Origin: Cladochytrium replicatum | Taxonomy: Eukaryota > Chytridiomycota > Chytridiomycetes > Cladochytriales > Cladochytriaceae | DNA: 64,000 bases | Assembly: GCA_025526935.1 (NCBI GenBank) | Contig: JAHLKD010000092.1 | Coordinates: 1-64,000, forward strand | Direction of reading: 5' to 3' | Part shown: one piece after another, positions 3,015-56,242 of the stretch | Position numbering within the stretch: the stretch's first letter is position 1 | Layout of the letters: the number at the start of each line of letters is the position of its first letter | Position numbers and translations under genes: made by a program | The notes under the pieces: generated by a model | What the model saw: only the letters and a program-made list of their open reading frames with translations | Databases searched by the model: none | What the model was told of the DNA's origin: nothing

Positions 3015-5306
3015 ACGCTATCTCACTGCAAAGAGTCTTTGTTTAGACACGGATTTTCGTGCATTCATTGCCAGCCGTGGCGATGCAGGTGATGATTCGT
3101 CGGAGGACGAATCTACCGCCAAACCGGTGTTGACCAAGAAGGTAATCTTTGACCTTACCCAACCTACTTCTGTTGATAAAGATGCTGACACATACATCGG
3201 AAATATGTTTTCGATAGTGAACGCACACTCGGCACAGAAGGTTGTCCGTGTACATGTTCAAGCAAAGGATCGTGTGGGTTTGCTTGATACAGGCGCAACT
3301 GTTTGGATGACACCTAATCGTCATGCCTTTAGTTCGCTGACGTATACGAATGACGAGGACGTGGTGGAACTAGCGGATAGTCATACAATTCCAGTTTGTG
3401 GTTTTGGAGATGTATCTGTAGTTTTACCCAATGGGCGAATTAAGATAATACACAACGCACTTTATGTTCCTGATCTCGAAGACACACTTGCATCAGTGTG
3501 TAGTATCATTGGAGACGGGGACATTGTGAGTTTCACCAAAGACAAGGTTATCCTCACGCATGGGTGATACGGATGAACACGTTATTATTGGGCGACAGGA
3601 AAGAGATTTGTACTATCTCTATGCTGATGTTAGTACCGTCGGAACTCACCAACCGCGGCATGTGATTGCTCAACGAGCTAAAGCAGTAGCGGTATCCGCA
3701 GAAGGTCTCGATCAGTCGATGGACTTTACGTCCGGTGTACGATCTTCTCACGCGATGGGTCTCGATGTAATGTCAGACAACAAGCATTCGTCAAACGAAC
3801 GATGATGAATGTCAACGAGCATCTCAAGATACAGTTGGAGTGAGCACCAACTTATCGCCAGTGACAGTACACGAAACTTGCAAAGTTACACCAGCAGTTT
3901 GGTCAGCATCCACTTACGGACGATCTTTCGAACGGCAGAGAAGCTCAACATCAAAATGCCCAAGGTTGAACCAGATGCATTCAATCTTGTCAACAAATCA
4001 ATTATGCAGAATTGTTTGGTCTGTAGTCGCACGAAGCTGAAGCAGAAGCCGATTTATTCTACAATAAGTCGAGCTCCGAGGAAACTTTTCCGTCTGTTTT
4101 CCGATGTCGTACGTTTAATCTACGACGGACAGAAGAAGAGATATTGGCAGATCATTGTCGACGAACAACCTCGTTTCATCACAATCTACTTCCTGAATCG
4201 AAAGAGTGATGCGGTGGGATAGTATGATTCGACATATCGCTGATGTGGAAAATCGCAATCACCCATTACACGTTGCTGAACTACGTTCCGATTCAGGAGA
4301 ATTGATTACTAAACGGTTGATCCAATGGTGCAATACCAAGATTCCTCGCATCCGCGTCCACCCAGCTCCTCCGTCAGTAAAGGAACTCGATGGTCTATCA
4401 GAGCGGAATATACAATCGATCAAGTATATGTCGGACGCGATGCTGCTACAAGCTGGACTACCACGAACACTTCAATTCGTGCAACTCTCCATCCTATACG
4501 CTGCGGTCGTCAAGAACGCTACTTTCCATTCAGCTGTGAATGCGATTCCGTACTGTGCTTACCTTGACAAGCGGATAGATTTGGCAACTATCCACGCCTT
4601 TGGAACACTCGTTAGTTTGTGGATCTCACACGAACAAAGGTTGGCGCGCAGAATCCGAGACAAGTCTGAACTAGGTCTGTTTCTCGGATACAAGGGTGAA
4701 GACCTGAAGATCGTCATAGCACTCAATTTTCGGACAAACACAATAGGCGAATACTTCCATGTTACGTTCCACGAGGGAGTTTTTGTTGGTTATAATCCTA
4801 CCCGACAGTTACTCGACGATCTTACGGTACAATATCCACTGAAGGCCGGGACATATTTCGATGTTGATCAAATACCAACCGGGGATCAGGGGGTGCAAGA
4901 GACGACTGTTGAGTTTGTCTCAGACAATTTCCCGATTTCTACCGTTGCAGACGAAGAAATCGATGAGGATATAAACGACGACCCCATATATTACCGCTTA
5001 GAAGAAGCCGGTGACATGCATGTTGTTGAACATTTACATGGACTAGACGATGATGACCCAGACGATGCTGATTATGATCCAAATGCTGATTTATCGACTC
5101 CACAATCCATTACTGAAGAATCTCCGAATTTGTCTTCCGTATCTCCTGTAGAGGAATATGATGCACAACTCGAAAGTGATCTTCAATTCATTGGAGAAGA
5201 TGTCGACGAAGCATATGCAGCAAGAAAACGAAAAACGTCAAGCAAGTGCAAATTTGTCGAACGCCAAAAGGAAACAAAATTCCTTGTTTACCCGGTCCGT
5301 TCCTAA
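2971..5306 (+). pseudogene. Family A knuckle-protease-integrase, broken
   Basis: Starts with a textbook CCHC knuckle (C-x2-C-x4-H-x4-C, 2971-3012) and runs open to 3567 through the aspartic-protease motif LLDTGAT (about 3283). A frame change follows. The next frame ends at 3805 with two adjacent TGA codons, then resumes at 3809 with an integrase zinc-binding CLVC motif and the first catalytic Asp region (QIIVDE). Another frame change near 4206 leads into the integrase core with LRSDSGE and LDGLSERN, which match the second Asp and the Glu regions of copia integrases. The last shift, near 5160-5300, moves into the RT frame. At least three frameshifts and two stops separate the domains. Confidence 0.82.
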
Positions 5307-7005
5307 TATCGATTGGACCCTGAAGGCCGATTCCTCATATCCAACACAACCAATTGCGAATGGAAATATACGGACTGCACCAAAGACTCTTCGTGAGGCT
5401 TTATCACGATCCGATGAGGCTCCATTCTGGTTAGCGGCGATGAAGGAGGAAGTTACACAACTAGTCGGCAACAATACTTGGGCCGAAACGTTTTTACCTG
5501 ATGGACGGAATTTATTATCGGGCAAATGGGTTTTCACATATAAGCTTGACGAACATGGCAATATTACTCGATTCAAAGCACGTTGGGTCGTACGAGGATT
5601 TTCACAGATTGAAGGATTGGATTTCGATGAAACCTATTCTCCAGTTACGAAAACGTCCACGATCCGTTTTCTGATTGCATTAGCAGCATTAGTCGGCATG
5701 ATCATATTCCAGTTTGATATCAAGGGTGCATATCTCAATGCGATACTGGAAGAAGAGAACTACGTCGAACTCCCTCATGGTTTCGGACGAGTAGATTTCC
5801 AGAATCGACCCATCGTCTGCAGACTTATCAAAAGTCTGTACGGTCTACACCAGGCAGCTCGAGAATGGTACAAAACTCTTTGGAAACAATATCTCAGTGT
5901 TGGTTTCGTGCGGAATATTGCAGACATCTGTCATTTCTGGCGATACAATCCAACAAATAATACCCGCGAACACACTACCGTTCATGTCGATGATATACTA
6001 CATTTTTCCACAGATCCAAACGCATATCATCGGTTTCAGACCGATTTGGAAACTTCGTTCACAGTAGGCAGTACTTCGAAGGCGAAATGGATTCTGAAAA
6101 TGGAGTTATTGCAGACAACGGAAGGATATTTCCTTAGCAATGCATTGTACGTAAAGAAGATTCTCGAAGAAGCGAATTTATGGGGTACCAACATCAAACC
6201 GACCAAAACACCGATGTCAAAATCATATATCTTTGATGAGACCACACCAACACTGTCCGATGCCGAGGCAACACAATTTCGATCAATGTTAATGAAGATA
6301 TCGTACGTGGCGACTAAGACACGACCGGATATTTCATACGCAGTCAATATTTTGGCACAACATCAGATTGATCCTCGACAGTCAGAATCAAAGGCTCTCT
6401 ATCGATTACAACGATATTTACTCGGTACTTGGGATTACGGTTTACACTATACACGGACTGGTATCACGTCTCCGATGCTAAGACCCGACGGTCTCTACAT
6501 GTTTGATTCGGCTAACAACCCACAAGGTTATGCCGATGCAGACTGGGCGGGCGATGCAGATAGATACTCACGAACCGGTTACGTGGTAATGTTCGCTAAT
6601 GCGGCAATCAGTTGGCAGTCGATTCGACAACAGACTATTGCAGCCTCGTCGCCGGAAGCCGAACTGTATGCGCTGAACGAACTATCGCGTGAGATGAAGT
6701 GGATGAAAAATCTTATGACGGGTATTGGAATTACGTCGTTCAATCCGCTCCGTTTATGGCAAGACAATCAATCCACCGAGTCTATCGCAAACAATCTGTT
6801 CAACAACAAACGGACCAAACACATGGACGTTCGCGAGAGATTTGTGAATCTCCAAGTTGAACAGAAACATCAGGAGTTACACCATATGGATACTTCTGAT
6901 ATGATCGCGGACATCTTAACTAAACCTCTTGGAAGTAAATTATACCTTAAACACAGGGGCTCGTTGGGGCTAGTCAGTCAGTCTTCACTTAATATACTAT
7001 CTTGA
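5158..7005 (+). CDS. Copia reverse transcriptase-RNase H (615 codons open)
   Basis: This is the only intact part of the family A polyprotein. The RT palm motifs are visible: KARWVVRGFSQ, FDIKGAYLNA (first catalytic Asp) and HVDDIL, the copia form of the YxDD box. RNase H begins at GYADADWAGD and contains SSPEAELYAL and the DNQSTESIA block, then ends in the conserved C-terminal TKHMDVR and ADILTKPL motifs. In a live element this would be the C-terminal part of one gag-pol polyprotein, so its apparent ATG at 5158 is probably not a real start. The frame links to the upstream integrase only through a frameshift. Confidence 0.9.
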   Translation: MMHNSKVIFNSLEKMSTKHMQQENEKRQASANLSNAKRKQNSLFTRSVPNIDWTLKADSSYPTQPIANGNIRTAPKTLREALSRSDEAPFWLAAMKEEVTQLVGNNTWAETFLPDGRNLLSGKWVFTYKLDEHGNITRFKARWVVRGFSQIEGLDFDETYSPVTKTSTIRFLIALAALVGMIIFQFDIKGAYLNAILEEENYVELPHGFGRVDFQNRPIVCRLIKSLYGLHQAAREWYKTLWKQYLSVGFVRNIADICHFWRYNPTNNTREHTTVHVDDILHFSTDPNAYHRFQTDLETSFTVGSTSKAKWILKMELLQTTEGYFLSNALYVKKILEEANLWGTNIKPTKTPMSKSYIFDETTPTLSDAEATQFRSMLMKISYVATKTRPDISYAVNILAQHQIDPRQSESKALYRLQRYLLGTWDYGLHYTRTGITSPMLRPDGLYMFDSANNPQGYADADWAGDADRYSRTGYVVMFANAAISWQSIRQQTIAASSPEAELYALNELSREMKWMKNLMTGIGITSFNPLRLWQDNQSTESIANNLFNNKRTKHMDVRERFVNLQVEQKHQELHHMDTSDMIADILTKPLGSKLYLKHRGSLGLVSQSSLNILS

Positions 7006-19124: not shown

Positions 19125-22100
19125 TCATTGTTGAAGTACTTGTTTGAGAAGAGATTCGGCATCTACACTATTATTCGAAGCATTCGTGCTGTCTGTTTTT
19201 CCTAGAGCATTGATGGAGCCAATTCTATTTCTAGTCCTGTTCTTGTTGTTCTTGAAGGCGTCTCCTGTCTTAAGCTGGGAGATAAGATCGTCCATAACAC
19301 CCTTGCGGTCAGACTGCAAAATATCAGATTGCTGCAATAGTTTGAATGTTAAGAATTAGGAGAATGGAAGTTATAAATGGGCTAACCTTTGTGATCTCTT
19401 TGTCTTTGCCTTTTTCAGCCACCTTTGCTGCTCTTTCTTCAGCTTTCCTCGCTGCTTCAGCATCCTTTTCATTATCCTTCCGTGCTTTCTTTAGAATCAT
19501 ATTAATTATTTGTTGGCAATCGCGAAGATCTTCCCTGCTCTCACCTCCAGATTTTGTGTAAAGTTCCAAAATTGTGAGAAAAAACTTTCGGGCGTTGCAC
19601 TCTTAAGATCATCGCCAAAAAATTCCACTGCACTCTTGAATCCGTTTTCCATCAACTCCCTCATCTCTTTTAACTCAGAGAGTGACTTCTGGGATCTCTC
19701 CAGGAATCTCTTCGTTGTTCATCAGCTGCCGATCACGTTCACTTAGTTGATTCTTACCTTTAATTCTTCATAAAACCGGTCTTCAGGCGGATGTTGCTCG
19801 TGAAGTTTCAGCTCCTCCTCGAGATTCTTCAGCGTATTCATGATGTCATTTACTTCCTGCATTAGCGCTGTTAGGGAAACTGAACCCGCTCTGATTAATA
19901 GTTGGGCTTAGAAAGGAGTGACATTGATTCACCTTTGGCGCCACGCTCAGTGGCAGCGATCTCAGATGGGAGAGATTTAAGTTCGGGGAACTTGCGGTCA
20001 ATAACTGTTGCCAGGTAGTGAAAGAAAGTTCTTCCATTAGAAGACTTTGTATCAGCCAGCTTTGGGAACCGGGTAAGATTGAGTACTGGGGGTGTGTTAG
20101 TAACTGTACCTTTGCAAGTGTGTCAATTGTAAACCCGTATGCACCACCTCTGAAGTTATCAGCATTCAAAAAATTACCGATTGCGAGGATAAGCTGGAGT
20201 GACTGGCGTAAGGCTGCACTAGATTTAACTTGGTTCGCGGCATCAATTATAATTTTCATGTCCTAATGTTCTTAAGTCAGGTATGTACCACCATGGGAGG
20301 AGGGAGGTATACCGGCTGAAGGTCGACCATCCGATCTTGAAACCTCATCATGAAATTTATTGCCTTGAGGCGTTGCTCATAGCGAGTGATCTTCATGATC
20401 TAAGATGCTGTACGTCAGATATTTTGAACAATAGGGAGACCACCACAAAATTTCATACAGCATAAAAGAATTGCTCTGCTTTTCCGAGGTCTTTCAGCTT
20501 TGCATCGACTTCGCTCGCCGTCGCACCTCCCATGTAGTCGCTAATCAACTGAATCTCCTCCTTTGACGGAATGTAGTTCAAGAACTGTTTGATCATCGTC
20601 TCCGAAAGCGCAGCCATGTCCATTCCCAGAATAGCAGCTCGCATATCATCGAACGGCATCTTGATTCTTCCAAGCATGATTGCTTGAATCAAGATGTAGT
20701 TAAATTGAAAAAACCAAAATCAAGGAAACAACACGGAATCTTGACATACCGACATTGTTTGAGCGCTTGGCATCCAGTAAAGTGACAATCTTCTTTTTCG
20801 AATCATCCAAACTAGCTTGATTGTTGTTTGCTTGTGAAGCTCCTGATTTAGCTGACACCGCAGCAAAGAATTGTTCAAGCTCCGAGAGATCGAGCTTATC
20901 TCGCCTAAGTACGTCCTCTGCATCCTGTGGTGTTGTGTCAAGAATTTTGCGCCAAACTGTTGGAGCCAGTTGTGTAGGAGCAACTTTGTTCCACGGTAGC
21001 TGTTTAAGCTTGGTAGATGGCTTCAGCTTTGATTTCGGCGGCAGAGCATTTGCCGCTTTAAGATGGATTTTAGATTTCAATGTGGATTTCCGACCTGTGA
21101 GTAAAATGCATACCAGCACCTGGCGGACCTGGAATCCCTGCACAAATACTGAGTATTTTCAATGGATATCTGATCAAAACTATACCTCCTGCGGGCGGGG
21201 GCGGACAAACTCCTCCTATGTGAATGAAAAGAATTGTTACGGTCGAAAATCTGTTTCTGAAATGCTTTACCAGGGGGTGGTGGAGGCGGTGGTCCTCCAA
21301 AACCTGAACGTTTCGATGTTAAACCGCAAGATATCAAATTTTATCAGGAGCTTATACCTGGAGGCGGAGGGGGAGGTGGTGGTCCTCCTGCCCTGGGTGG
21401 AGGAGGTGGAGGTGGAGGGCCGCCAAATCCTTTAAAGCGTTTTGTCAGAGTCAAATTTTGCAAGGTTGTAGTAGCACAATTAATCACCAGGTGGTGGTGG
21501 TGGCGGTGGAGGAGGTTGGCCACCAAAACCTTTGAAGTAGGTGAGCACCAAAAGCAATTCATCAGGAAATAATTTCCGTACCTGGAGGTGGCGGTGGGGG
21601 AGGTGGTCCGCCGAGTCCTCAAACAGCTGTCAGAGGCCAAAAAGTGATCTCAAACACGTACTCACCAGGAGGTGGTGGTGGTGGTGGGGGACCGCCAAAC
21701 GCTTTAGGAGCGGATCAATATTCAGATAGAAAATTTATGAACATAAAGGTCACCTGGTGGTGGAGGAGGAGGTGGTGGCCCGCCAAACCCTTTGAAGCAA
21801 AATCAGACTGATAAAAGTTATGAATTCAGTTGGACTTACCTGGCGGAGGATGAGGCGGTGGAATCCCTGCACCTTGGATTGATGAGGATTAAAAAAATCC
21901 AAACCATGTAGAATAGTTTAGCTATATACCACCAGGTGGTGGTGGCGGGGGCGGAGGCTGCCCACCGAATCCTACAAAACGAGATCAGTTTGGGCATACC
22001 CTCATGATATCACATTATGGTACCTGGAGGCGGCGGCGGTGGGGAAGGTGGTCCACCGAATGCTGTTTATTGAGGTCAGACTAAATCACAGTATAAGCCG

Positions 22101-24826
22101 ATGGATGATTCTAACCTGGAGGAGGTGGAGGTGGTCCAAGAGCTTCCCACGGTGTGTCAGCTTGCGATCAATACACAAATTCAAGTGTATTTACCAAGAG
22201 GTGGCGGCGGAGGAGTTGGCACCCCTACAATGATATTAAAAAAGTCACGATCGAGAACGGTCTTGAGTCTGATGTATCCTACCATCCATTACCGCCGGTG
22301 GTTGGGGGGGCCGAGACGGATTTGAGAAACCTTGCAATGTCAAGTTTGTCACCGAGAGATTCAAACGTGATGGTAAATGAAATTTCACCTGCTGGCGGTG
22401 GTGGAGGCGGAGGCGGAAGCGGAGGCGTAGGAGGAGGAGGACCACTGATTGCTATTGAAAAAACATGAACGTCAAACGTTAACCGGCAAAGTCGGCAAAC
22501 CTGTCGGTAGCGGGGGAGGGGCCGGCGGTGGAGGCACCCCAAGAGCTGTCGTTTGAATCGTTAAACGCTGTCGGGAAGATGGAGGAACATCATAAGAAAT
22601 ACCAGTTGGAGGAGGAGGTGGAGGCGGCGGGGGTCGCCTGTGAGAATCAGATGGCGCTATAAAGTGTTTCAGTTTTCTTTCACACGACCGAAATTTTTGG
22701 CGTACCTGATGGAACAGGAGGCAGGGAATGTGCTATCGATCAATATCTCAGTACTGGAATAATTTGAATGCTTTGTTTTCAACCTGAAAGGTGCACGGAT
22801 GTCTTACGAGAACCTTGGTTTTTCAATTGAAGCTCTTCAGTGGATCGGCCTGCAACCGATGAACAGTGTAGCCTCTGCCCATTTTGCAGATGGAGTTATA
22901 AGTACCTTGTGACCTCAAGAAAAATGATGTTCTCTTGCTGCTTCGATTATTCAAAGCATCTGAAGAAGATCCCATGGGCGGCACCTTATCGCGTCCCTCA
23001 CGAGACATTACAAGTTCGCGTTTCTCAAGCACGCGAAGACGGTCCTCTTGCGTGACCCCGTCGCACAGACTTTGGGCAACGACGAGCGCAGAAATTGCAG
23101 AGTCCACACCAAGTTGCAGTTTCGCAATGTCTGGGTTCAGTCCATTACGCTGGAGAACAATTTGCCCAACTATCAAGTTGAGAAGGTGCCAAAATTTTGA
23201 GCTAAAGAAAGCGAAATCATTTCAGAACCGCGTTTGAGGAGATAAGCTATAGTTGCTTTTCTCCAAACCTGCGGCCCAAGTCCGTAGGTATCAATGTGAG
23301 CTTTTGAAGAACGAGAGTAAGCCAGTGAGTGGCCTCGGCGCCTCTGACGTTCATCTTCACAACTTTGAACAGAGCATCAACGTCAGTAATGAATTTTGAG
23401 TCAAGGAGCTCATCAAGATTGTTCGTCTCGGAATAATGGAATTCTAATAGGATATGTCATATCAACACCAGTAAAGTCCAAAGACAGCGACAGCTCTTCG
23501 TAGTCCGCTGCGGCCTCTTCTTCAAAGATCATGAGCTGAGTTTGAAGATCTGCATTTGATGTTTCATGCAGCACCTGATAAGAGATGCGGTTTGATGGCG
23601 AACACTTTTGTGAAAGGTTGACGAAAAACACACCGGCATGATTTCAGCTATGCCCAGGAGTAGAAACTCGGATCTTAGAGCCACACGAAAGTCCAGATCG
23701 TCCGGTGAATTCACGGCAGCATTGATGAATGCCATCGCAGCAGTCTTGAATTAACATTCAGCGTAGAGACAATAGGCGCATTGTGTTACCCCACCTGGTA
23801 TTCCAGAAGGGCCGCAGGCTGTATGTCCTCATCACCGCTGGAGAGGTCAACCTTGAGCAGCTCCATAATCCCCTGGAACCTGTATTCCTCGTGCTTCACA
23901 GTTCGGAAGTACTCCATTGCATCAAGAATCAGCCCGTGACCGTTGGGCGGGACGAAACACACTGCTGCAAGAACTTCTAAGGTCATTGTCCTTGTTTTAA
24001 TATGTGAGCATCCAAGTCCTAGAGCGAGAATACGTATTCCAGACGGCGTTTCGAGGATAGTTTGCAATCCGAAGCTGCTGTTGAGTGTCGCTTTGAGAGC
24101 CCTTATAAATTGAGTAAGGCAGTCACGCTCGTCAATTGTTGGGCTTGGGTGTTATTTTAGCTTTTAGTCTTGCGAGCATATTCCCAAGACAGTCAAACTC
24201 GCACCTAGCTTTTGTTCCGAATTGCTTCCCAAGCTGGAGAAGCGTGCCCAAACCTCCAGCGCAAACGAAAAGCTTGACCCACCTTATTTAATAAATTGAG
24301 AAAAGAAGATTCCAAGGTGCGTCATTGCCTCACTGTATTGATTCAGTTCGCAGCGAAACTTCAAGGGACTGAAGCTGTTTTGCTCGATCACGAGAAGCCA
24401 GAACATTTTTAAGCGCAAATGCTGAATTCTTCGGGTCGTTTGTAGTCAGGAGATCAGAAGCGGAAGAATAATGAACCAAACTGTGAGCCGCTGATGATTT
24501 GGTTTTCTGCTGTTCTAAAAGCAGCCATTTTCTCTCCGGCGACATTGCACGCATCTGATCCATCTTCTGAGGTGGTACGCCCAGATCCTCCTTGAATAAG
24601 AACAGTTTGAGGAGATACAATTCCAACCTGGAGTGGGATTACGCACCAAAAATGCTTCGAACTGTTCATTTAGATTTGAAGGCACTGAGACAGGGGATGC
24701 GATCCCCAGTTTCGACAGATCAGTTGGATCTGTGGGTGTCGCTGAGTTTGGCGAGGTGATAGCCACTCCCAGCTCATGTTTCGAGGCCTGTTTCTGAGTA
24801 TTGAGTTTCTTCTTGAGCTGGAACAT
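19125..24826 (-). CDS. Diaphanous-related formin
   Basis: Actin nucleator of the DRF type, minus strand, more than 30 exons. Start MFQLKKKLNTQKQ at 24826. An intron (24656 down, ending before GAG at about 24602) joins FEAFL to EDLGVPPQKMDQM, the GTPase-binding domain. The FH3/DID armadillo region follows (NSPDDLDFRVALRSEFLLLG near 23680, LEVLAAVCFVPPNGHGLILDA near 23950) and then a dimerisation/coiled-coil region near 23100. FH1 is a run of proline micro-exons (21114-22637). FH2 starts in the exon 21094-20750 (TKLKQLPWNKV) and carries LGRIKMPFDD, RYEQRLKAINF, LILAIGNFLNADNFRGGAYGF and LADTKSSNGRTFFHYLA. The last exon has a DAD (GVMDDLISQLKTGDAF) plus a basic tail, implying Rho-relieved autoinhibition. 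One apparent single-base frame break lies near 19588 in late FH2. The splice join just before 22637 is unresolved. Confidence 0.9.
21114..22637 (-). repeat. Array of 17 proline micro-exons (formin FH1)
   Basis: Seventeen consecutive short exons on the minus strand, each with its own acceptor AG and donor GT, interrupt 1.5 kb. The first is 35 nt (22637-22603). The other sixteen are about 24-72 nt, and each begins with two and ends with one codon base (phase 1-1), so every one is a multiple of three. Typical product is (G/A)FGGPPPPPPPP. Examples are the 36-nt units near 21,790-21,750, 21,705-21,665 and 21,625-21,580. The last is 21137-21114 (G-IPGPPGA-G), followed by the FH2-entry exon at 21094. 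Many acceptors end in AAAG. Together they encode the profilin-binding FH1 region. Confidence 0.88.
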
Positions 24827-24983: not shown

Positions 24984-27900
24984 ATGCAGTCTGCCGAACA
25001 GTCGCCGTCGGCATTGCAGCCGCAGCCTGCCGCACTGACTCTGCAGAACCTGCAGCACATACAAATCCCTCCGAGACGCGAAACTCGAAACCTCCCCCTT
25101 AATGCACAGACCACTAGCTCGCCTGTTGGGTCTGTCTCTGGCGCTTCGGACCGCCAGACCGCCATTCAGCTCCCTCGCCCCATGTCTGGCTACTCTTCAC
25201 CACAATCGATTCGAAACCCGATGGCTGGTGTGGACTTGGCAACTCCAGCTCCTTACGCTGGCTCGCAGAACAATGTTCGATTTCGCAATCAGCAAGTTAA
25301 CCTTGCATCTCCTACATTTTCGGTTGCAACACCTCCGCGCTCACCGTCAGTCTCAAGTCTTGCGAGCAGCGATATTCTCCCTGTTTTTCGGCGTCAAAGC
25401 AATCGCCACTCTGGCATATCATCTATCTACATTCCTGCACCACCATCTGATGTTCTATCTGAGCCTAATTCATCGATATACATGCCGAGTCCGGTGGAAG
25501 AGTTTCCCCAATTCACCTTTCCTTCAGAGCAAGAGGAAGACTCTGGTGGTTCAGATGGTGAAACGACACCAACTGCTACCCAGCCAGCAAAGGATGACAC
25601 CTTGCGCCGGCCTCAGACTCAATCTACTCCACCTGCACCCACTGGTCCCCAACCAGTGTCAATTTTGAAAAAGAAACTCTCGACCGAAGCTCTCGCCAAA
25701 ATGAATGCCGCATTGGGCAGTTCTGATCCTAGCAAGGGGATCCTTTCTGGAAGTGAAACTTCCCAGTCGGCTGGAAGCGCAAACGATGGGAGCGACTCTC
25801 GAAAGGTTCGCAGCGACCTTGCTGTGGATGTGAATGCAAAATCGAGTGAGAATGTGAAGCGGCCAGAAAGTCCTACCGCCAAACCTGATTCCAACCCCGA
25901 ACCCCGAAGTTTCTCGCTTTTGTATCGACTCGATGACAATCCCGAAAAGGACTCTGAGCGACCTTCCCGCACCGCTACTCCACCAGCAGGACTCGCTCAG
26001 AAATCAGGCCGAGATCCCAAAGTTCCAACTCCTGCTCCACTGAAAGATGTGATGGCAGAACAAATCGGAGCTCGGGATTACAGTACAAACACCTCACCAC
26101 CTGCCTCACCAACAGACCCAAGAATGAGACAATTAGGTGATTATAATCAGAAGTCTAGGCAACAACAAGAAACATCTTCGGCTTACAAAGCCGTCGCGTC
26201 ACCATCGTTGCGCAGAGCGACCAGTCCAGCTCCGGGTTCCCCTGCGGTACTTTTAAAGGCTTTCCCAAAACCTCCACCGTCGGAGTTAAGTGGTGCCATT
26301 CCCCAAGCGCCAACATTTACGGGATGGCTGTTCAAGTTGGGCACGAAAGGTCGATGGCAATATCGGGTAAGTTCTCAAGTATTAATTTTTGATTCTCGCT
26401 CATATTTTGGTGCGCGTTGCAGTTTTTCAAATGCGATGGGACGAGTTTGACTTGTTTTTCACCGAAGACCGCTACAGCAAGGTTTCTTACCACATCCCAT
26501 AGCCGAGCCAACGACGGCATCGACGTTCTGACTGAGCTGCAGGAGAAATGGAGTATACCTATTTCCGATGTTGCACAGATTGCGTTGCTGAGAAAGGTAC
26601 CTCGCCGGCCGTCACAATTGAATGTTGGTGGACCAGAAGCGAGCATGTACCCAGCACATAACGGAAACGCCCCTACAGGAACCATTGGACGTGCGATGGC
26701 GAAACTGCGAACTATGGTTCAGCATGATGACGGAGATATTGGAAGCCCTTATCCCCCGCCGATGACTGATGGTGTGACAGTGGTGGCTAACGTGAGGACT
26801 CTCGAACGCGACGGCAGTCGAAACGGAAGTATGAATCGCTCGCAAAATTCGTCTTCGAGTATCACGGCCGCAAATCCTTTCGATGGGGAAATCGACATCG
26901 TTTCCAAGTGCTTTGCGATCCGAACGTACGAGGGTCACAATTACATCCTCAGAGCAAAAACGGATGACGATACTGCTCGCTGGGTTTGGCTGTTAGTTAG
27001 ACTGTGGCGGGATTACAATGCGAGCTCGACACCGACATCGTCGCAACAATCGCCAATGTCACCCACCCCGATGATTCAGTACCAACAGCTTATGCAGCAG
27101 CAGCAGCAACAGCAACCTCAGGCACTGTCACAGCGCCAATTACAGCAACAAATCAGTAGTGCTGCAAATACTTCTCAGTCTCCCGAGCAGCAGCCCGGGG
27201 AAAAGGTTTCCTTACCCGGAGACGATGATTTGTTGAATCAGTGGGGATTGCCATCGCTTCGAGGCGGGGAAAAGGCAACTGGTTCCTCCTCGAACCAGAG
27301 TGCTCCTCCTGCGCTTCCCGCGAAAGACGAATCCGTCGCCAGCGGTGTCCTAATGTTGAGTCCGGCAAACTCTCCCAAGCTTGGATTCCGCCCATCTGCC
27401 GCTGTCAAGTCGAAAGACGGACGTGCGATCCCCGTCGGTAAACGAGAGTCAAGCTTGCGAATCATGAGGACGATTCCGAACAACACGTTGGCCGCACCCG
27501 GATATCAATCTCCTGCAATGAGCAGCGCTCAATTGGCAGTTTATTCGGGAAGTGTAACCCGTGGTGGGACCACTGTGTCTCCAGCGTTGCCGACCGCGCA
27601 GCTTGGCACTCCTCCATCCACTGTCGTGTATTCACCTCAGATGACGTACGAAATCGTCGAAGAGGAAGATGACGAAGGGGAGGTTGATGACGTCGGACCG
27701 CAGCGCTGGAGGCTCACGGACCGCGGACAGTTGCCGCCCCAGGTGCCGCCTAAGGACCAAGAAGATGACGATGATGATGAAGAAGGTGGCGCGGACTGGA
27801 TGAGCGACCAGACAGTGACGGACATAATGCAGCGCTCGTCGATCGTGTCGAGTTCGAGGGTCAAGTCGCCCCGAAACGCAACACGTTTGACAGTGTCCAA

Positions 27901-29092
27901 TGAACATGGGAACGCAACGCTTGCGCCTGGTGTGACCCGGTCGTATATGGAAGGCAGTTCGGAAGTTGTGGTTATCGACGACGGGCCCGATGTGGAGGAA
28001 GAAGCGGAAGTTGTGAAGCTTGTCGCTGTGGTGGATGCGCCAGAGACCAGCTTGCGCGCGTGGAGGAAAAGCATGTTGAGCTTGCAGACTTCGGAGCGGT
28101 CGTCGGACGTGGGCGGCCCGAACCGTAGCGAGTCCATGAAAGTGGAGCACGCCAGTATGATGGAAGAGCAGCCGAATAAGCAGCCTGCGGAGATCATGGA
28201 GGTGCTTGATACTCTTGCGACTAGCCAGGAGTGGATGGATCAGATTCCCGAAACAAATGAGCCACCGCAGCAATTGCGACAAGAGGTGCAGCAACCACAA
28301 TCACAAATGGCCTCGCCTACGGGCCAGCCAGTGGTACCCAGACAAGTCAGCTTTGCTGCAGCGAACATCACGGTGCCGAAGCGTGGAACTTCGATGGTAT
28401 TGCTGAACATGAAGCTTGCCGCCCAGAATGCGGCTGCAGCTGGAGAACAGCCTCCGCTTCCCGAGAAACCACTTCCGCCGATCCAGCAGTCCCTGTACCA
28501 TGCGCCAATCGACACCACGCCGGTCGTGCACTGGACCCCTTCCACTGCGGGCTACGTACCTCCAGACACAGGACGCCCTCCACCAAGCAGCTCTGCGATG
28601 GCGCGCGCGACAACGCGCGTGATGCGCTGGCGACAGACTCTAGTCGAACTCCTAGCGGACGATCCTGAAGTCCACGTCGACGTGACGCCGACCAGCCCCA
28701 CAGGATACACCGATGCATCAGGCAACCCGCATAACTCCATCACGACGATCACGACCATCAGCCACACCCACTACGGCACGGAAGCCTCGGACTCGCCCAA
28801 CGTAGCAGCACAGTTTTTGCAGCAGACGCTGAATAGAGACTCGACTGTGAAGAGGATGCTCCCGCCGCCGCCTGTGCGGCCCCCACCGCCGCCGAAAGGT
28901 ACCGGGAGCTGGCAGAGTGGCGCGCTGTCGTTGCAGCAGCAGCTGCAGTTGCAGCAACAACAGCAGCAGATGTTGATGTCTCAGCAGCAGTCGCAGCAGC
29001 AGCAACAAGACCCGGTGGCGAGCAGCAGGCCGTTTAGTTGGTACATGGACATGGTGAAAGCTCAGAGCATGCCGGTTGCGAGAACTGGATAG
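24984..29092 (+). CDS. Large PH-domain protein with disordered flanks
   Basis: Two exons, 24984-26366 and 26423-29092, joined in phase 0 (GTAAGT ... GCAG), give 1,349 residues. The first 430 residues are Ser/Pro/Thr-rich and disordered. A PH domain starts at FTGWLFKLGTKGRWQYR just before the intron and continues with FFKCDGTSLTCF. After a long insertion, the terminal strand and helix follow (KCFAIRTYEGHNYILRAKTDD, ARWVWLLVRLW). The rest has poly-Gln blocks (about residues 690 and 1315), an acidic patch EEEDDEGEVDD, and proline-rich PPPPVRPPPPPKG near the C-terminus, a possible profilin or SH3 ligand. The PH domain suggests phosphoinositide membrane binding, and sharing a promoter with a formin hints at a cortical actin role. 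That is inference, since no specific orthologue is recognised. Confidence 0.8.
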
Positions 29093-41216: not shown

Positions 41217-44200
41217 TTAGTTAATACAGACAGAGAGAGAAAGTTGAACCGTGTGCTCAACATTGAGTTGGGAATCACAACTGTTGCTAACATGCAAATG
41301 CAGCACATCGCTGTACCACTCGGCGCTTTTGGCGTAGCTTGTCACTGCACACTCCAGCACTCCAAACCCCTCAATCTGTGCTTGGCTCGGAACCACTGCA
41401 AACGCTGCTCCCCTCCCTTCTCTGATTGCTCGATCCGCAATCGCTTGCATCTCACGCTCTCTCTTCATCTTCTGAATGTACCCTTCACCGTTCTTGGATA
41501 CAAATCCAATCGTTGATATCGCTGTCCGTGCCAATATGACATTGTCACTTCCACCACAAGCTTTCTCCATTTGATCCTCTTGTTTGTCAACTGCTGGCTG
41601 CTCATGATCCCTGGCTGGAAATTGGTCGACCCAGGCTTTGAATATCAATGGTGCCCCTGTACAATTTTGTACACTGAATCGCTTAGTTTTGATCTCCAAA
41701 AGCCGGCACCTCCCAAAGTCAATAGTGCCATCATTACCTTCTACAGAATCAGAATGTACAACATCCGACATACTAGTCAGATTGCAAACTGCTTCCCCAA
41801 AAATAAACTTTACTCTTGATGAAATTGCAGTCAAACAAAGGTGATGTCCAAGTATTCCGCGTGATGCTACCATCTCTGCAACTCTGCAACACAAAGTGAT
41901 TGACTCCATTTCAAATTGCTTGAAACAGCATATTTCAACCTCAACATCCATAGTCTTGTGTGGGTGAATGGTGTCTGCGCTTGGATTGAATTTAATTCTG
42001 TAAAGGTCTGTTTGAACATCATCCCATGCAAAATCTGTTGGAAAGCTTGTCAAGTTTTTCATTGATATTGCGGTTTTCACTGACACACCAACAAAGCAAG
42101 TCAAGGATGAGGAAACATTCAACAGTTTCACCAATGGTGTTTGAACTTCACCAAATACTTCAATGGATGTTGAGGTGTATTGATTAAACACAATATCACA
42201 AGAAACTTGTTTAGCAGTGCAATGTAGCTTTCCTCGAATGCTATGATACCAGAATGGAATATATCGGAGAGTAATTACTTTTGCTTCACCTGGTTCAATT
42301 GTTCCAGATACCGGCTCAATTTGGGTAAAATTTTTCTCAGGCAGGATTTTAGATTCTACACCTGATGATCTTTCAATTTCAATATCATTGTATCCATCAG
42401 AGAAGAAATCAAGTTTGAAGGACATTGCCAGTCCTGTTGTGTTGATTAGTTTTGCTTGAGCAACTGCACTAGTTCCAAGTGCAATCATATTGAAGTCAAT
42501 CACTTCAAGGTTGAATTGAAGTGCATCAGGAGGCAAGATGACATCTACTATCAGTAGAACTCTTATGATCTTTCCTGTGCTTAGGTGACATTCTAAATAA
42601 TGGTCTCGGAAACTGCCTGGACACTGAAAACAAAGAGATACTTTAAAATCCTCTGACAAACTTGGCTGAAAGATTCCAGAGTGCGGTTCAACAGTTATGA
42701 ATCCCAACACGCCAAGCTCTGGCAATATCTTCCACGAATATTCAACAGCTGACATGTTTGAGTTGTCAATTGACACAGATGTTGCGGTCACTTGGTCAAC
42801 ATAGATAGGTGAAAATAATCTCAACTCAGGTGTCTTCAATCTGAAGTAATGTGGTATAACTGATGCTGAACACCTCAGATGAATGAGTTCCTGCTCAGCC
42901 TTCTCGATAGAAAACTCATTCTGGATCTGTTTCAGCTGTAATTGTGCCACAAAGTCGTAGGCGCACAATTCCTTTGCGTAAAAGTGAAATGTGAATAGTT
43001 TTTCATCTAAAGGTCCAAAATCATGATTTCTAGGGCTGATTATCAATTCTGATAATTTATGGTCTGATGCTTCTAAAAGTCTCATACCAGAGTTTGCTGC
43101 GCAACTGTAATTGAGAAAGACATCCCATGTGCATATTAGATGCAGCTTTGTTTTGTTTTTCAGTTTGACAGTGTATGTAATTCTGTCATCCAAATTATGC
43201 TGACCAAAAGATATTGCTGGATTACCATTCACAATATTTACCAGAATAGGTTTTTCAGATTGATCATAAATAGACAGAATTTGTATCTCCGGAACCTGCC
43301 CACTGCCTTTGAGTGGAACAGGATTTGTATCTCCTTCATCTGAAATAAGATATGCGAATGCCTCATCAGCTTCCTCATCCTGCACTTCTCCCTTTCCTTC
43401 TGGGCTGTATTTGACATAGATGGTACAGACTTCATTCTCCTTCAGACAGAAGTTTTGAGGGTGTACTTCAAATTGTGAGCATTTCAAGCTCTTGCTAGGA
43501 AGTTTGCAGAAGTTCCTATTGAGCTCTCTTGTTTCTACCACTTCTTTAATCATAGAATCTATACTCTTCAGTTCCCCACCCTGAAACTCAAACATACCAG
43601 GTCCTCCCACATTCTGAATGTCCCAGCATTTGACAATGGATGATCCCAATTTGCAAGGTCCGCAATCGAGAACATGGGCCAAAACAAGCTTAGGTGGATT
43701 TCGTCTTGCAAATACAGGAATGATAACTGATTCTCCAAGATTAGTAGAAACTTTGTAAAAGCACTCAAAATCTGCTAGAACTGGAGGAGAGAACACAACT
43801 GTGTATTCTCTGTACATCCCAGGCGCCACCAAACCGACTTCTGCAGCATTTGAGAATGTTGGGTGAAATTTAAAGCAATGCGATTTTGTCTCTGGAGAAA
43901 TTCTGACCCTGCCAGAAACCGATCCTGTGTTGACAACCAAAAAGGTCTTTCTGTATGTTTCATTCAGCTGAAAGTCTGTAAAGACGATTGTGGGTGGTTG
44001 AACAACAACAACTGACGTGCTGTGAGGTTGTTCCTTCACACGCTTTATGTGAGACTTTTGATGTAAATGGGGGTCAATTTTGGGCAACTTCTTGCGGTGG
44101 TTATATCTGATATGTTTTGTAAGCTGTGTGAGAAACTGATGCTCTTTGGATAATTCAGGAACTGCCTTTTCTATATTTGTCAACTTTGTTGGCTTCTTTG

Positions 44201-45059
44201 GCGTCTCAAGCCAGCCCTGAGGTGTATGCCCATGATCAGTGCGGGGTTTGTTGAGCATTGAGATCCGCAGAGTGTCAGTCTCTGATGTGGGCTTGAGTAG
44301 AGATTCTGGCTTGAGATGGTCTGTTGACGATTTGAAGCTGATCACTTTGCATGGTGCGGTTGCAGAAGGGTTGGTGAACGAGTGTAACTCTAGGAGATGG
44401 CGCAAGTCGGATATGCCAGCTCCGTAGACAGACTTATATTCGCTATAAATGTTGTTGTCGAGATCGAGTGCAGAACGACGAGATTGGATCAAGGAGTCAC
44501 GGTACAGTTGAATATCGGTGAGATTGGTGTTCCGTAGCTGGGCAATGTTCTCAAGGTCGTTTTGGAAGTTTTCGTCTTCAAGGGAAGCGAACAAGGAACG
44601 GAATGGATCAGGTTCAGATAAAAGTGCGCTAGACACCGCATTTTGGGTGTCGGTAGCGATGGTAGCGGCTGCCCATCGGCGAAGTGTGTCTCTGAGTCCA
44701 AGAATTTCTGGAGTGGCGAGCTGGAACTCTCTTTGCTTCAGATCTGGAGTTCCGGCACCCATGTGGCCGACCTTTTCCGAGATCAGCGGTGAACTGAGCA
44801 GCGTCTCTGCAATTTCTTTTCTTGTCTAAAGAAAATGTGACAATGTATTACAGTTCCTTGTGCCTGTGTACTTTGATCAAACCTGTAAGTGAATTTTCAA
44901 AGATCTCCTGCACCAACCCTCCAACCCCTCCGCACGAGCTCTCCCCTCCGCAAGCTTCTCTTCAGCCCACACATTCTCTCCCCCGCCTTCTTCCTCACAT
45001 CCCCGATCCCCTCGTCCGATCTCGATCGTCCCTTCCCGTTTGGGCAATTCCAACTCCAT
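41217..45059 (-). CDS. DLEC1/CFAP81-like axonemal ASH-domain protein
   Basis: The long exon 44825-41217 holds about 1,200 codons. A small first exon, 45059-44883 (MELELPKREGTIEIG), joins in frame, giving about 1,261 residues; if that exon is not used, the start is MGAGTPDL at 44762. The protein is a string of immunoglobulin-like ASH/MSP beta-sandwich domains. Examples are PPTIVFTDFQLNETYRKTF, GLVAPGMYREYTVVFSPP, VLDCGPCKLGSSIVKCWDIQ, and several 'I-P-G-E-A' strands such as GTIEPGEAKVITLRYIP. The 'APGM..E.TV.F.P' and 'LDCG.C..G' patterns are typical of DLEC1, a component of ciliary axonemes and basal bodies. A near-intronless 3.6-kb exon is unusual next to intron-rich neighbours. DLEC1 rather than another ASH protein (CFAP47, CFAP65) is my best but not certain call. 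Confidence 0.75.
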
Positions 45060-51836: not shown

Positions 51837-54634
51837 GGTTCACATGTAGGTTGAAGCGGGTGGTGCCCGCTCTGCTGGCGTATCTGGCCGTGTCTTCAGG
51901 TGTGCTGTATCTGTTCTTCTGGTCTGAGCTGGAGGAAATAAGGAAAGGTTCCCGATGGCTCCGTTCCGTGTCTATGAAACGGCGAAATGCAGATCACCGT
52001 AGAATCGTGTTCCCAGAGATCCCGCAAGCACTTCCACCGTCTGATCGACGTATCTCTTCCGTATCCTGTTCCTTTTCATCTCGAACATGTTTTGTGCAAA
52101 ACCTGTACTTCTTTAACGGGGAGTTTCACGCCTACGTTGGCGAGAAGGCAAAGGTTGATGAGATACGAAATTTTAAAGCGTACACTGGAATCGGGTTTGG
52201 AACGTCCTTCGTGGAGGTAAAAGTCGTTGACAGCTCAAAGGACGTTAACATTGTCAATGCCTCTGGGAAAAGTACGGGAGCAAGTTCGGCTGGAAACCTG
52301 ACAGCGCAAGTCGCATCGGCGTCGAACTCACTCCCACGGCACAGCGGGATGACCATACCTCTGTACGTCCACCCGAAAATGCCACCAGAAGCAGATCAGC
52401 TTCCTCCAGATCTCGGGCATCACTTTGAACCAGTTGCTTTCTTTTCGGTCCTTTGGAAGAACCTCTTTAGGACAATATACGCGGGTATCGGGTCGTGGCT
52501 GACGATGATTGAGTACAAGGTGTTCTTCCCGGACCACCATCGGTTGACCTTGATCGACAAGAATCCCAAACCATCCGACTTTGTTCATACCCTGGAAGCA
52601 GTGTCACCGTACCCCGTACGGTGGCTCGAAGACCTTTCTCCCGGACTGTACAAGGCTGCAGTGTTTGGGATTTCGAGGAACGTTCTGGTAGCCGAACTTG
52701 ATTTGGAACTGAAGAGTGAGGGACGGTTTGAGAAGCGAGCGTTAGCGTTTCGGGCTTTTTGCGACAAGTTGAAGAACAACTTATTACAGAAGAAGGCATT
52801 GAAGGAGTACAAGTCGTCTCAGCTCCCGCAGGCGGGGCGATCCCAACGTTCCAGCACTCGTCCTCGCGTCACTTTGGTGCTGAGAACCGGGAAGACCCGG
52901 AGAGTGCTAAATGAGAAGGACATTATCGCCGCATTGAAGACGCTTCCAATTGATCTCGCCGTGCACCAGTTTGACGGTCTGGCGTTGGAGGAGCAGCTTG
53001 CGATCATCGACGAAACGGACGTGCTGGTTTCAATGCACGGAGCTGCATTGACTCACCTCCTGTTCCTAAGACCTGAAACCTATCTCGTCGAACTGTTTCC
53101 GTATGCGTTTCGGAAAATCATTTATCAGAACTTGGCCAAGATTATGAAGGTCAAGTATGCATGCTGGCAGAACACCAAGGAGATCGACACGGTGTTCAAT
53201 TGGGCATCTGTGGAAGCAAACCGATACACGGATGTATCGAAAGGGTTCATCACTAGACAGTTCATCGACTGGCGCAACATGTAAGACTCAACCTCTTACT
53301 CATTCGAATGATTTTAGCTGACATTAGTGGGTTTCAGGGACTCGAAGAACTATTGGAGAAATCAGGACACGTACGTTGACTCCACTGAGTTCGGTCATGT
53401 TATATCGAGCGTTCTTGCGGATATGAAAGGGCCAGCTCACAACAAGTTTTTGATCTACCAACCGTGGGAGCAGTTCAATAATCAGGTCCTCGGATTGAAG
53501 TCGGCCTGTGCGACTGCGAAGATCCTGAACCGCACCCTTGTTCTTCCTAGGGTTGGATACAGGTACGAAGTCCTGGACGACATTGAGGAGTACCCCGTAG
53601 CCGGGTACATGTGGAAACCTTTCGAGCGCTACTTTGACCTGGCTTCTGCACTACGCTACCCCTGCTCAACCATCACATTCGACAATTTCCTTTCCCTCCG
53701 TGCCGGAAGGTCAATCGGGACACTCCGGTACCATCACCTCGGCAATCAAACCTCACAGAAGCAGTTTATTGCGTATTATAAGCAGGAGGTGCGGATACCG
53801 TTCGACACGGTCGTGTGGGATAAAGTGTACTACCAGCTATCGAAGCGGGATATATTGAGAGTACATGGAGGCGACAGTAGCGAGGTGCTGGCATTGGGTA
53901 CCATGTTCTGGTACCATGATTTTGGGATGAAGCAGACGTATCCTCTCGACCATTTCTACAACTTCATGAAAGATCCAATCTACAGAGGCATAACTGCAGC
54001 GCTGGACGTACACCAACGGTACATCCGCATGGCGGATTATTTAATGGAGACACGGATACGGAATGGAACGCATCGATTCGTTGCGAGCATCCACTGGCGG
54101 AGGGGGGACTATTTCCAAAAGTGCGAAGGAGTCAAGAGGGACTGGGAGCAGAAGTTGGGGCGGGAAGTGCAGTGGACGGATCGGGAGGTGCAGAGATGCT
54201 GGCAGAATCCGTCCACGATCATCAATGCACTTAATAAGCTAGTTCCCAACGTCAAAAAGCGGGATGTGATCTTTGTTGCGACAAACTCAAACAGCTGGCA
54301 GGATTGGAATGAGCTTGTGAAGCTTGCCACTCGAGCCGGTTGGAAAACTGTTGTCAGTCAGCAGCAACTTGTTCCTTGGTCAGGCGGCAACAAGAACGTT
54401 TCGACCCTGGAGATCATGCTTGACGAGAAGCGAAGGGCACGGAAGGTGGTGCCGAAGGAGTGGAGAATTGGGTTGGACGAAGTGCAGAGTCAGATGGACC
54501 CGATCGATCTGTTGATTTTGGATCAGCAGCTGTGCATGAAGGCGGACATCTTTGTCGGAAACTTGTACTCGTCGGCGTCTCGGCGGATCATCGAGGGACG
54601 AATTTTGGCTGGAAAGTCATGGAATGTTTTTTAA
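51833..54634 (+). CDS. GT61-type glycosyltransferase fused to an O-fucosyltransferase
   Basis: Two exons, 51833-53280 and 53338-54634 (AACAT|GTAAGA ... TTTCAG|GGAC), give one frame of 914 residues. After a signal anchor (RVVPALLAYLAVSSGVLYLFF) comes a GT61/DUF563 domain: SCSFSSRTCFVQNLYFFNGE at its start and SMHGAALTHLLFLRP...YLVELFP at its end, the family's acceptor/nucleotide-sugar site. The second half is a GDP-fucose protein O-fucosyltransferase fold: FNNQVLGLKSACATAKILNR (with TLVLP after it), ASIHWRRGDYF (the HxRRGD motif) and the C-terminal KADIFVGNLYSSASRRIIEG. Each half is full length for its family, so this is a bifunctional Golgi/ER enzyme candidate. Substrates are unknown. Two separate genes would require a start near 53327 with no ATG, which is why I prefer the fusion. 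Confidence 0.85.
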
Positions 54635-54786
54635 TTCAGAGAATACGGTTGGATTTGCTTTCAGCAATTCTGGAAATGTTTTTGCAGTTCTAAACAGATT
54701 TCTGTATTCAATTTTTTTAGAAAATAGTTGCCTTCATTCCCCAGCCACCACGCGGATCTCTACCTCGACAACGTTCCCAAACAAAC

Positions 54787-55110
54787 ATGGCAGAGGGGCT
54801 AGTCATCAGCATCGTGTTCATTGCATTCGTCGCTGCAGGCATCGCAGGGTTTATCTTCTCGCCAAAGGGTCAAGATCAAGTGTGAGCAAATGGCGTTTTA
54901 TAGTTTGTGAATTATTAATTATTCTGCAACAGTGTCTGGAGAACCATTATTATCATGACGCTGGTCTGTACATGGACGATGTGAGTGCTTTATTGATCCT
55001 TTCAACGAGGCCTTCCTGACAGGTGAATTGATTAATCTAGGTGGGCAGTCACATACCTGGCCCAGGCAAACCCACTCATTCGCCCGGAAAAGCCATTGAG
55101 GCACACATAG
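54787..55110 (+). CDS. VMA9: V-ATPase subunit e (Vma9)
   Basis: Three exons (54787-54881, 54933-54980, 55041-55110) give 70 residues, the family's usual size. Two membrane spans (LVISIVFIAFVAAGIAGFIF and IIIMTLVCTWTMWAVTYLA) flank the conserved PKGQDQVVWRT linker. The tail QANPLIRPEKPLRHT matches the AQxxPLIxP ending of subunit e. It is a small subunit of the membrane-embedded Vo proton channel. Confidence 0.9.
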
Positions 55111-55229
55111 GTTGGCTCAAAGTATTAAGAACAAGGTATGTAGTTCCAGCATCTATATTTCAATGCTTCATGAACTGAATCTGCTGCACACAGAACTATT
55201 CGTCAATCTCTCTTTCGACATTTTTCGGC

Positions 55230-56242
<1,013 letters not shown>

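Follow-up and report, generated by a model that had tools for sequence, protein, structure and literature searches.

A chytrid formin whose FH1 region is probably encoded by an array of 17 phase-1 micro-exons

The subject of this paper is a formin gene on the minus strand of the first 64,000 nucleotides (nt) of contig JAHLKD010000092.1 from the chytrid fungus Cladochytrium replicatum (Chytridiomycota, Cladochytriales). This whole stretch is called the window below, and all coordinates refer to it. Our main conclusion, to which we would give a probability of about 0.8 and which comes from analysis of the sequence, is that the proline-rich FH1 region of this formin is coded by a tandem array of 17 phase-1 micro-exons together with a 27-nt leader exon (E0), that these exons are constrained coding units and that the introns between them have an ordinary appearance for this genome. 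A first-pass annotation of the same DNA had pointed out the array, at 21114-22637, as a series of 17 exons, mostly of 24-72 nt. All of them are present at the places it described; they measure 24-72 nt, are on the minus strand and are separated by GT-AG introns. The observation is confirmed and is slightly larger than it had been described.

In its other parts the gene looks like that of a conventional diaphanous/DAAM-like formin, with the domain order GBD-FH3-FH1-FH2 and probably a DAD. The product of our model matched the Pfam families Drf_GBD (PF06371, 111.3 bits, residues 50-235), Drf_FH3 (PF06367, 135 bits, residues 242-435) and FH2 (PF02181, 290.8 bits, 2.2e-86, residues 774-1149, with the W-x-K motif at about residue 787). 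The FH1 lies directly before FH2 and has 16 tracts of four or more prolines (P4+) within residues 546-756. By sequence, the closest FH2 of solved structure in the PDB is that of DAAM1 (2j1d, 6.3e-64), chains of diaphanous homolog 1 being matched too. Near the C-terminus, VMDDLISQLKTGDAF could be aligned with a comparable segment of diaphanous homolog 1; no DAD model of Pfam matched. Three chytrid homologues carry the name DAAM2, a label given by their sources and not taken from a tree. A protein search also returned an NCBI entry of 1210 amino acids, P0001 (formin homology 2 domain-containing protein, Cladochytrium replicatum). Our model and P0001 are identical except for five differences of exon choice or boundary, so they represent one gene and, to the extent that a single protein can tell, one species. 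P0001 holds E0, E1-E9 and E14-E17, that is 13 of the 17 units, bounded as in our model, with E9 joined to E14; outside FH1 the two differ at three spots, around residues 361-366 and in two short stretches of FH2. The parts of the gene are as follows, all on the minus strand.

19125..24826: formin gene, ATG at 24826, stop at 19125; modelled with 36 exons, 1252 amino acids
22906..24826: exons 1-8, coding for GBD and FH3 (Pfam), with introns of mixed phase
22784..22849: pre-FH1 exon RSTEELQLKNQGSRKTSVHLS, 66 nt, phase 1 at both ends; also in P0001
22706..22732: E0, HSLPPVPS, 27 nt, phase 1 at both ends; in P0001, missing from the first-pass annotation
22603..22656: E1, 54 nt, acceptor TTATAG; in P0001
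22501..22545: E2, 45 nt
22389..22451: E3, 63 nt; in the model and P0001
22283..22330: E4, 48 nt, hardly poly-proline; in the model and P0001
22195..22224: E5, 30 nt; in the model and P0001
22116..22142: E6, 27 nt, weak acceptor GGGAAG; in the model and P0001
22024..22062: E7, 39 nt, FGG unit; in the model and P0001
21930..21971: E8, 42 nt; donor GTATAT chosen by the ab initio model and P0001 (an alternative donor, GTGGTA, would give 39 nt and an end at 21933)
21840..21872: E9, 33 nt, weak acceptor, strongest donor of the array (GTAAGT); in the model and P0001
21754..21789: E10, 36 nt, FGG-P8; in the model, absent from P0001
21666..21701: E11, 36 nt, FGG-P8; in the model, absent from P0001
21582..21617: E12, 36 nt, LGG-P8, non-consensus acceptor GAG; in the model, absent from P0001
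21488..21529: E13, 42 nt, FGGQ-P9; in the model, absent from P0001
21358..21429: E14, 72 nt, double unit FGG-P8-RAGG-P8; in the model and P0001
21271..21303: E15, 33 nt, FGG-P7; in the model and P0001
21186..21215: E16, 30 nt; in the model and P0001
21114..21137: E17, 24 nt, hardly poly-proline; in the model and P0001
21056..21113: last FH1 intron, 58 nt, GTATGC...AAAG
19125..21055: exons for FH2 (Pfam; PDB matches) and a DAD-like tail (VMDDLISQLKTGDAF...KNRTRNR)

All 19 introns between 22783 and 21056 have GT-AG ends and measure 48-58 nt, where about 30-100 nt had been stated before. One of them, between E1 and E2 (22602-22546, 57 nt), is read through in the ab initio model and spliced in P0001. 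Phase 1 at both ends had been claimed for 16 of the exons; the symmetry holds, and the count becomes 17 of 17 once E1 is started at 22656, which makes E1 like the remaining exons of the array. A start at 22637 was rejected: the model uses the acceptor TTATAG at 22656, and the extra residues PSDSHR are present in P0001. A last intron of only 19 nt, ending at an internal CACAG, was rejected as well; both the model and P0001 use the AAAG at 21056. The description of every exon as an (F)GG-poly-Pro unit fits eight of the 17 (E7, E8 and E10-E15, all with [F/L]GG), seven of which have one clear unit and E14 two, while the other nine are looser proline stretches.

The last base of every exon in the series E0-E17 is G, and in each one from E0 up to and including the first FH2 exon the first two bases complete a Gly or Ala codon. 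Any donor of the array joined to any later acceptor would therefore stay in frame, with Gly or Ala at the joint. That any subset of the exons could be skipped without loss of frame, as the first-pass annotation had it, indeed follows from the all-phase-1 structure. Retention of an intron, on the other hand, would bring in an in-frame stop in 15 of the 19 cases. Two of the remaining four, the E1-E2 and E16-E17 (21185-21138, 48 nt) introns, are in frame and free of stops, so their retention would lengthen the protein. Unit number would thus be free to vary by skipping, and retention would mostly be destructive.

The gene model comes from a small splice-aware gene finder trained on the window and on 9.5-kb stretches around eight other formin loci (140 kb), with the formin gene under study left out of the training. 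Run on the strand that carries the formin, it recovered the array of micro-exons. The control set consisted of 128 predicted introns with a median of 56 nt and with phases 0, 1 and 2 in 69, 37 and 22 cases. Between 22905 and 20683 there are 20 consecutive phase-1 introns ab initio, or 21 if the E1-E2 intron is spliced. At the control rate of 37/128, and if introns were independent, a run of 20 would have a chance of about 2e-11; the longest run of one phase in 16 control predictions was 4. Shuffling 21100-22660 in blocks of two bases, which breaks frames and splice sites together, lowered the gene score from 150.1 to 45.8 +/- 3.0 (30 shuffles, maximum 51.6), and blanking any single one of the 17 exons cost between 5.0 and 16.0. 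When introns of up to 600 nt were allowed, all 17 units were retained. The donors of the array are as strong as those of the controls (p = 0.75), and the branch-point motif CTRAY was as frequent in the array (7/19 at 8-40 nt) as in the controls (34%), with no difference between them.

A further argument comes from comparing the units with each other. It used ten whole codons from the start of each of eight core units (E7, E8, E10-E13, the first half of E14, and E15). At the first two codon positions these are 95% identical, whereas the third positions of proline codons agree in 36% of comparisons, against 34% expected from codon usage. With the first two positions kept and the third free, the units are coding sequence under selection at the protein level, E10-E13 included. 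Since the silent sites are saturated, the copies must be old.

Several points weigh against this interpretation of the array. The scoring of proline codons matters: if they are made neutral, E12-E15 are lost, E5 shrinks to 2 nt, E3 and E4 are joined, and the bounds of E6 and E17 are altered, so proline content carries part of the exon calls, and the training loci include proline-rich FH1s of other formins. The control introns are not independent either, being predictions, many of them from formin pairs with common introns. Array acceptors are weaker than control acceptors (Mann-Whitney p = 0.015), and those of E6 and E12 score below all 128 controls. The acceptor of E12, the weakest site of the array, ends in GAG, which is found in none of the controls (CAG 64, TAG 39, AAG 25, GAG 0), and it lies inside the block E10-E13, whose 50 residues are absent from P0001. 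The gene finder itself also made errors. At the three spots outside FH1 the P0001 version looks better than ours. The ab initio start at 25446 was wrong and ran into the neighbouring gene, so that the ATG at 24826 was adopted, as in P0001. With introns of up to 600 nt the model splits an exon (24143-23795) that is whole in P0001.

How the array arose can be considered apart from its present structure. Tandem duplication of an exon together with its intron, which the first-pass annotation had suggested, would be the cheaper history and is plausible, if unproven. The exon bodies agree with it: a direct-repeat search arranges them in families of up to 13 copies, with 60-88% identity to the reference copy and a spacing that is often 84-100 nt. 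The introns do not add to this. Their mean local score within the array is 14.27 (171 pairs; 14.9 for adjacent ones), no excess over the 14.12 of array-control pairs (2432 pairs) and the 14.06 of control-control pairs. The best pair scored 29 within the array, 28 between array and control and 90 among the controls, the last because the controls include paralogous formins. Neighbouring introns of the array do not have the sequence in common that tandem exon duplication would lead one to expect, and a comparison of intron 3' ends was of no help on the question of duplication. But with third positions saturated, duplicated introns would also have become unrecognisable, so the intron test cannot decide. 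The AAAG acceptors once offered as a mark of duplication are weak evidence: they end 5 of 19 array introns and 11 of 128 controls (Fisher p = 0.036), and any AAG acceptor ends 8 of 19 and 25 of 128 (p = 0.039). Both comparisons are post hoc and too little to prove common descent. Of the 6 matches to the pattern AGSNYTYGGNGGNCCNCCNCC, 5 lie in the array and the other in the formin on contig C1, against 2 matches for its reversed control; the pattern AGGNNNYGGNSMNCCNCCNCCNCC was badly built and is uninformative (1 match in the genome, 0 in the array, 4 for the reversed control). Ongoing repeat instability was rejected as an explanation and unequal crossing-over at present, also proposed earlier, is unlikely, Tandem Repeats Finder giving one weak 6-nt array in the region.

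The alternative history is that a continuous (GFGG-P8)n FH1, as in the paralogues, was cut by parallel intron gain at recurring CCAG|G sites. We rate its chances as distinctly below even, if not small. It would account for array introns that resemble each other no more than controls do, and for the outcome of a genome search (50.5 Mb, with simple repeats and very common words skipped) in which the 1.6-kb array matched nothing besides itself. In the paralogues L009 and L010, moreover, one FH1 intron interrupts the final Gly codon of a GFGG motif (as read by eye), a different codon of a GFGG-containing unit, so introns do enter this motif independently. Nevertheless, about 15 separate gains at one codon would be needed, where exon-intron duplication needs one intron, and the repeat families and fairly even spacing of the exon bodies speak against it. 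Introners as the source were rejected: the array introns align with controls no better than controls do with each other, and in the genome search just described, with simple repeats and very common words skipped, the array matches only itself. Overall, about half of the interpretation given in the first-pass annotation finds support. The FH1 is indeed modular and frame-neutral, and its origin by duplication is plausible, although the introns do not show it.

Whatever its origin, the array may be used in different ways. If all units are spliced constitutively, the FH1 is fixed and phase 1 would be a by-product of introns that sit in Gly/Ala codons of a repeated unit. We would lay about even odds on this. 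Intron length and donor strength match those of predicted introns elsewhere; short introns fit intron definition, and tiny exons then need no special help. What fits less well is the block E10-E13, with its weak sites and its absence from P0001. If, instead, the micro-exons, mainly that block, are alternatively included, the number of proline tracts available as docks would differ by life stage. This seems to us possible but doubtful. Every junction is frame-neutral, the FH1 of P0001 is already 50 residues shorter and has 8 tracts of six or more prolines (P6+) where the model has 12, and several sites in the block are weak (the acceptors of E12, E13 and E11, the last two at the 6th and 13th percentiles of the controls, and the donor of E10 at the 13th). 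Weak splice sites are common for cassette exons. However, weak sites are also found outside the block, in exons that P0001 contains (the acceptors of E6, E9, E15 and E4, the last three at the 2nd, 4th and 9th percentiles, and the donor of E7 at the 12th), and P0001 may be the product of a gene caller. The short repetitive PEVK exons of titin are often missed by annotation tools, according to passages of PMC6469411, so that omission from P0001 is not by itself evidence of skipping; the shorter model is a hint of either skipping or an annotation miss.

One could also suppose that E10-E13 have recently fallen into disuse, the true FH1 having 13 units with E9 and E14 joined by a 410-nt intron. The omission from P0001 and the GAG acceptor of E12 speak for it, but we think it unlikely. 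All four exons are open, multiples of three and of phase 1, they are regular FGG- or LGG-P8/P9 units, and the protein-level constraint covers them. Long introns are rare (of 119 control introns, 2 are longer than 300 nt), and when, with long introns permitted, the 410-nt intron was forced across E10-E13 the model scored 131.66 against 150.08, which is 18.4 nats worse. Finally, since the plus strand here reads as G-rich low-complexity blocks, the array might be mistaken for non-coding GGT/GGA repeats, for a gene that no longer functions or for an assembly error. This is hardly credible: GBD, FH3 and FH2 are intact, the units are constrained as protein, a public protein exists, and the introns are too diverged for a recent duplication in assembly. 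A pseudogene or non-coding repeat was accordingly rejected on the Pfam domains, the match to P0001 and the codon-position constraint.

Returning to the constrained micro-exon array as the preferred interpretation, we can sketch how it might work. The phase-1 interruptions fall within Gly or Ala codons that lie between the proline stretches, and most exons carry one such stretch together with its glycine spacer towards the following one. Once about 18 short introns had been spliced out, the FH1 would have about 211 residues and 12 P6+ tracts, E10-E13 presumably being present in at least some transcripts. Each such tract could serve as a dock that passes profilin-actin on to the FH2 ring. A skipped unit would cost a dock or two and leave the rest in frame, so the array should tolerate loss, gain or skipping of units, and dock number could vary through splicing or in the course of evolution. 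The number of FH1 tracts affects the speed of a formin, and replacing the two N-terminal tracts of yeast Bni1 slowed elongation, as passages of PMC11773026 report. One extension would be that the set of micro-exons spliced in, E10-E13 in particular, varies with life stage so that splicing sets dock number and acts as a rheostat for actin elongation in a unicellular fungus, a design like that of the titin spring; we regard this as speculative and rather improbable.

Tract number in FH1 is commonly regarded as a fixed property of the protein. With most docks placed in their own frame-neutral exons, this gene offers a natural series for relating dock number to elongation, and a way to find out if an actin assembler can be tuned by splicing. 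There is also a more practical lesson. P0001 lacks four exons that the sequence supports, a warning that micro-exons may also have been dropped from the gene models of other proline-rich or repetitive proteins in fungi with many introns, and FH1 lengths of homologues may be underestimated for the same reason. The model FH1 has 16 P4+ and 12 P6+ tracts in its roughly 211 residues. The counts are 12 and 8 for P0001, and 5-9 and 3-5 for five chytrid homologues (P0002-P0006), whose models may also miss micro-exons.

The eight other formin loci identified in this genome code their FH1 in one or two exons, and the poly-proline lies in a single reading frame in six and in two frames in the other two. 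These loci form four pairs, L009/L010, L011/L012, L013/L016 and L014/L015, on contigs C1/C58, C54/C29, C12/C57 and C22/C105 of the assembly (G000), with identities of 87%, 86%, 90% and 67-68% (protein), respectively, over the best aligned stretches. L013 and L016 have an identical string of intron phases. The window formin has no close partner among the formin loci found. The pairing is a sign of large-scale duplication or of a hybrid origin of the genome.

Other features of the window can be listed briefly.

24984-29092, plus strand: predicted gene, 1350 amino acids, head to head with the formin and 157 bases from its start; a PH-domain match in the first 660 residues is marginal (24.6 bits, cut-off 25.1)
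41217-45059, minus strand: predicted protein with HYDIN/CFAP74-like Ig domains (first 547 residues searched), for which reason it is probably ciliary, fitting a zoosporic fungus
51974-55284, plus strand: prediction with glycosyltransferase 61 and O-fucosyltransferase matches, possibly two genes merged by the gene finder
4224-7005, plus strand: Copia-type reverse transcriptase (RVT_2) of a retrotransposon
62160-62244: near-identical 42-nt tandem pair (97% matches)

We know of the ingredients of this gene from elsewhere, a formin on one side and a symmetric exon repeat, as in titin PEVK, on the other; their combination was not found in our literature searches. Among the open-licence articles in PubMed Central (PMC) that these searches listed, none described an FH1 coded by a micro-exon array in its title or the beginning of its abstract, and the main text of PMC5628938 mentions neither exon nor intron. 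Dictyostelium formins have their introns mostly upstream of FH1, according to passages of PMC555941. Diaphanous-related and DAAM formins resemble the present one in domain order and FH2, and chytrid homologues such as P0002-P0004 have similar G-x-G-G-poly-Pro repeats, but here the FH1 is divided among 17 micro-exons. Introner-type gain also places many introns at similar sites, and such introns have sequence in common, unlike those of the array. Runs of short symmetric exons occur in the unrelated proteins of collagen genes and of schistosome micro-exon genes, the latter coding mainly for secreted variable proteins. The PEVK exons of titin have a common phase. There are over 100 of them, short and repetitive, coding for proline-rich units of a spring in vertebrate muscle, with many alternatively spliced isoforms (passages of PMC6469411). 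The likeness to our array lies in the tandem short exons with proline-rich units, here 24-72 nt long and phase 1-1 in 17 of 17. The difference is that in the formin they would build an arm for actin delivery, with introns of 48-58 nt and with splicing variants that are putative.

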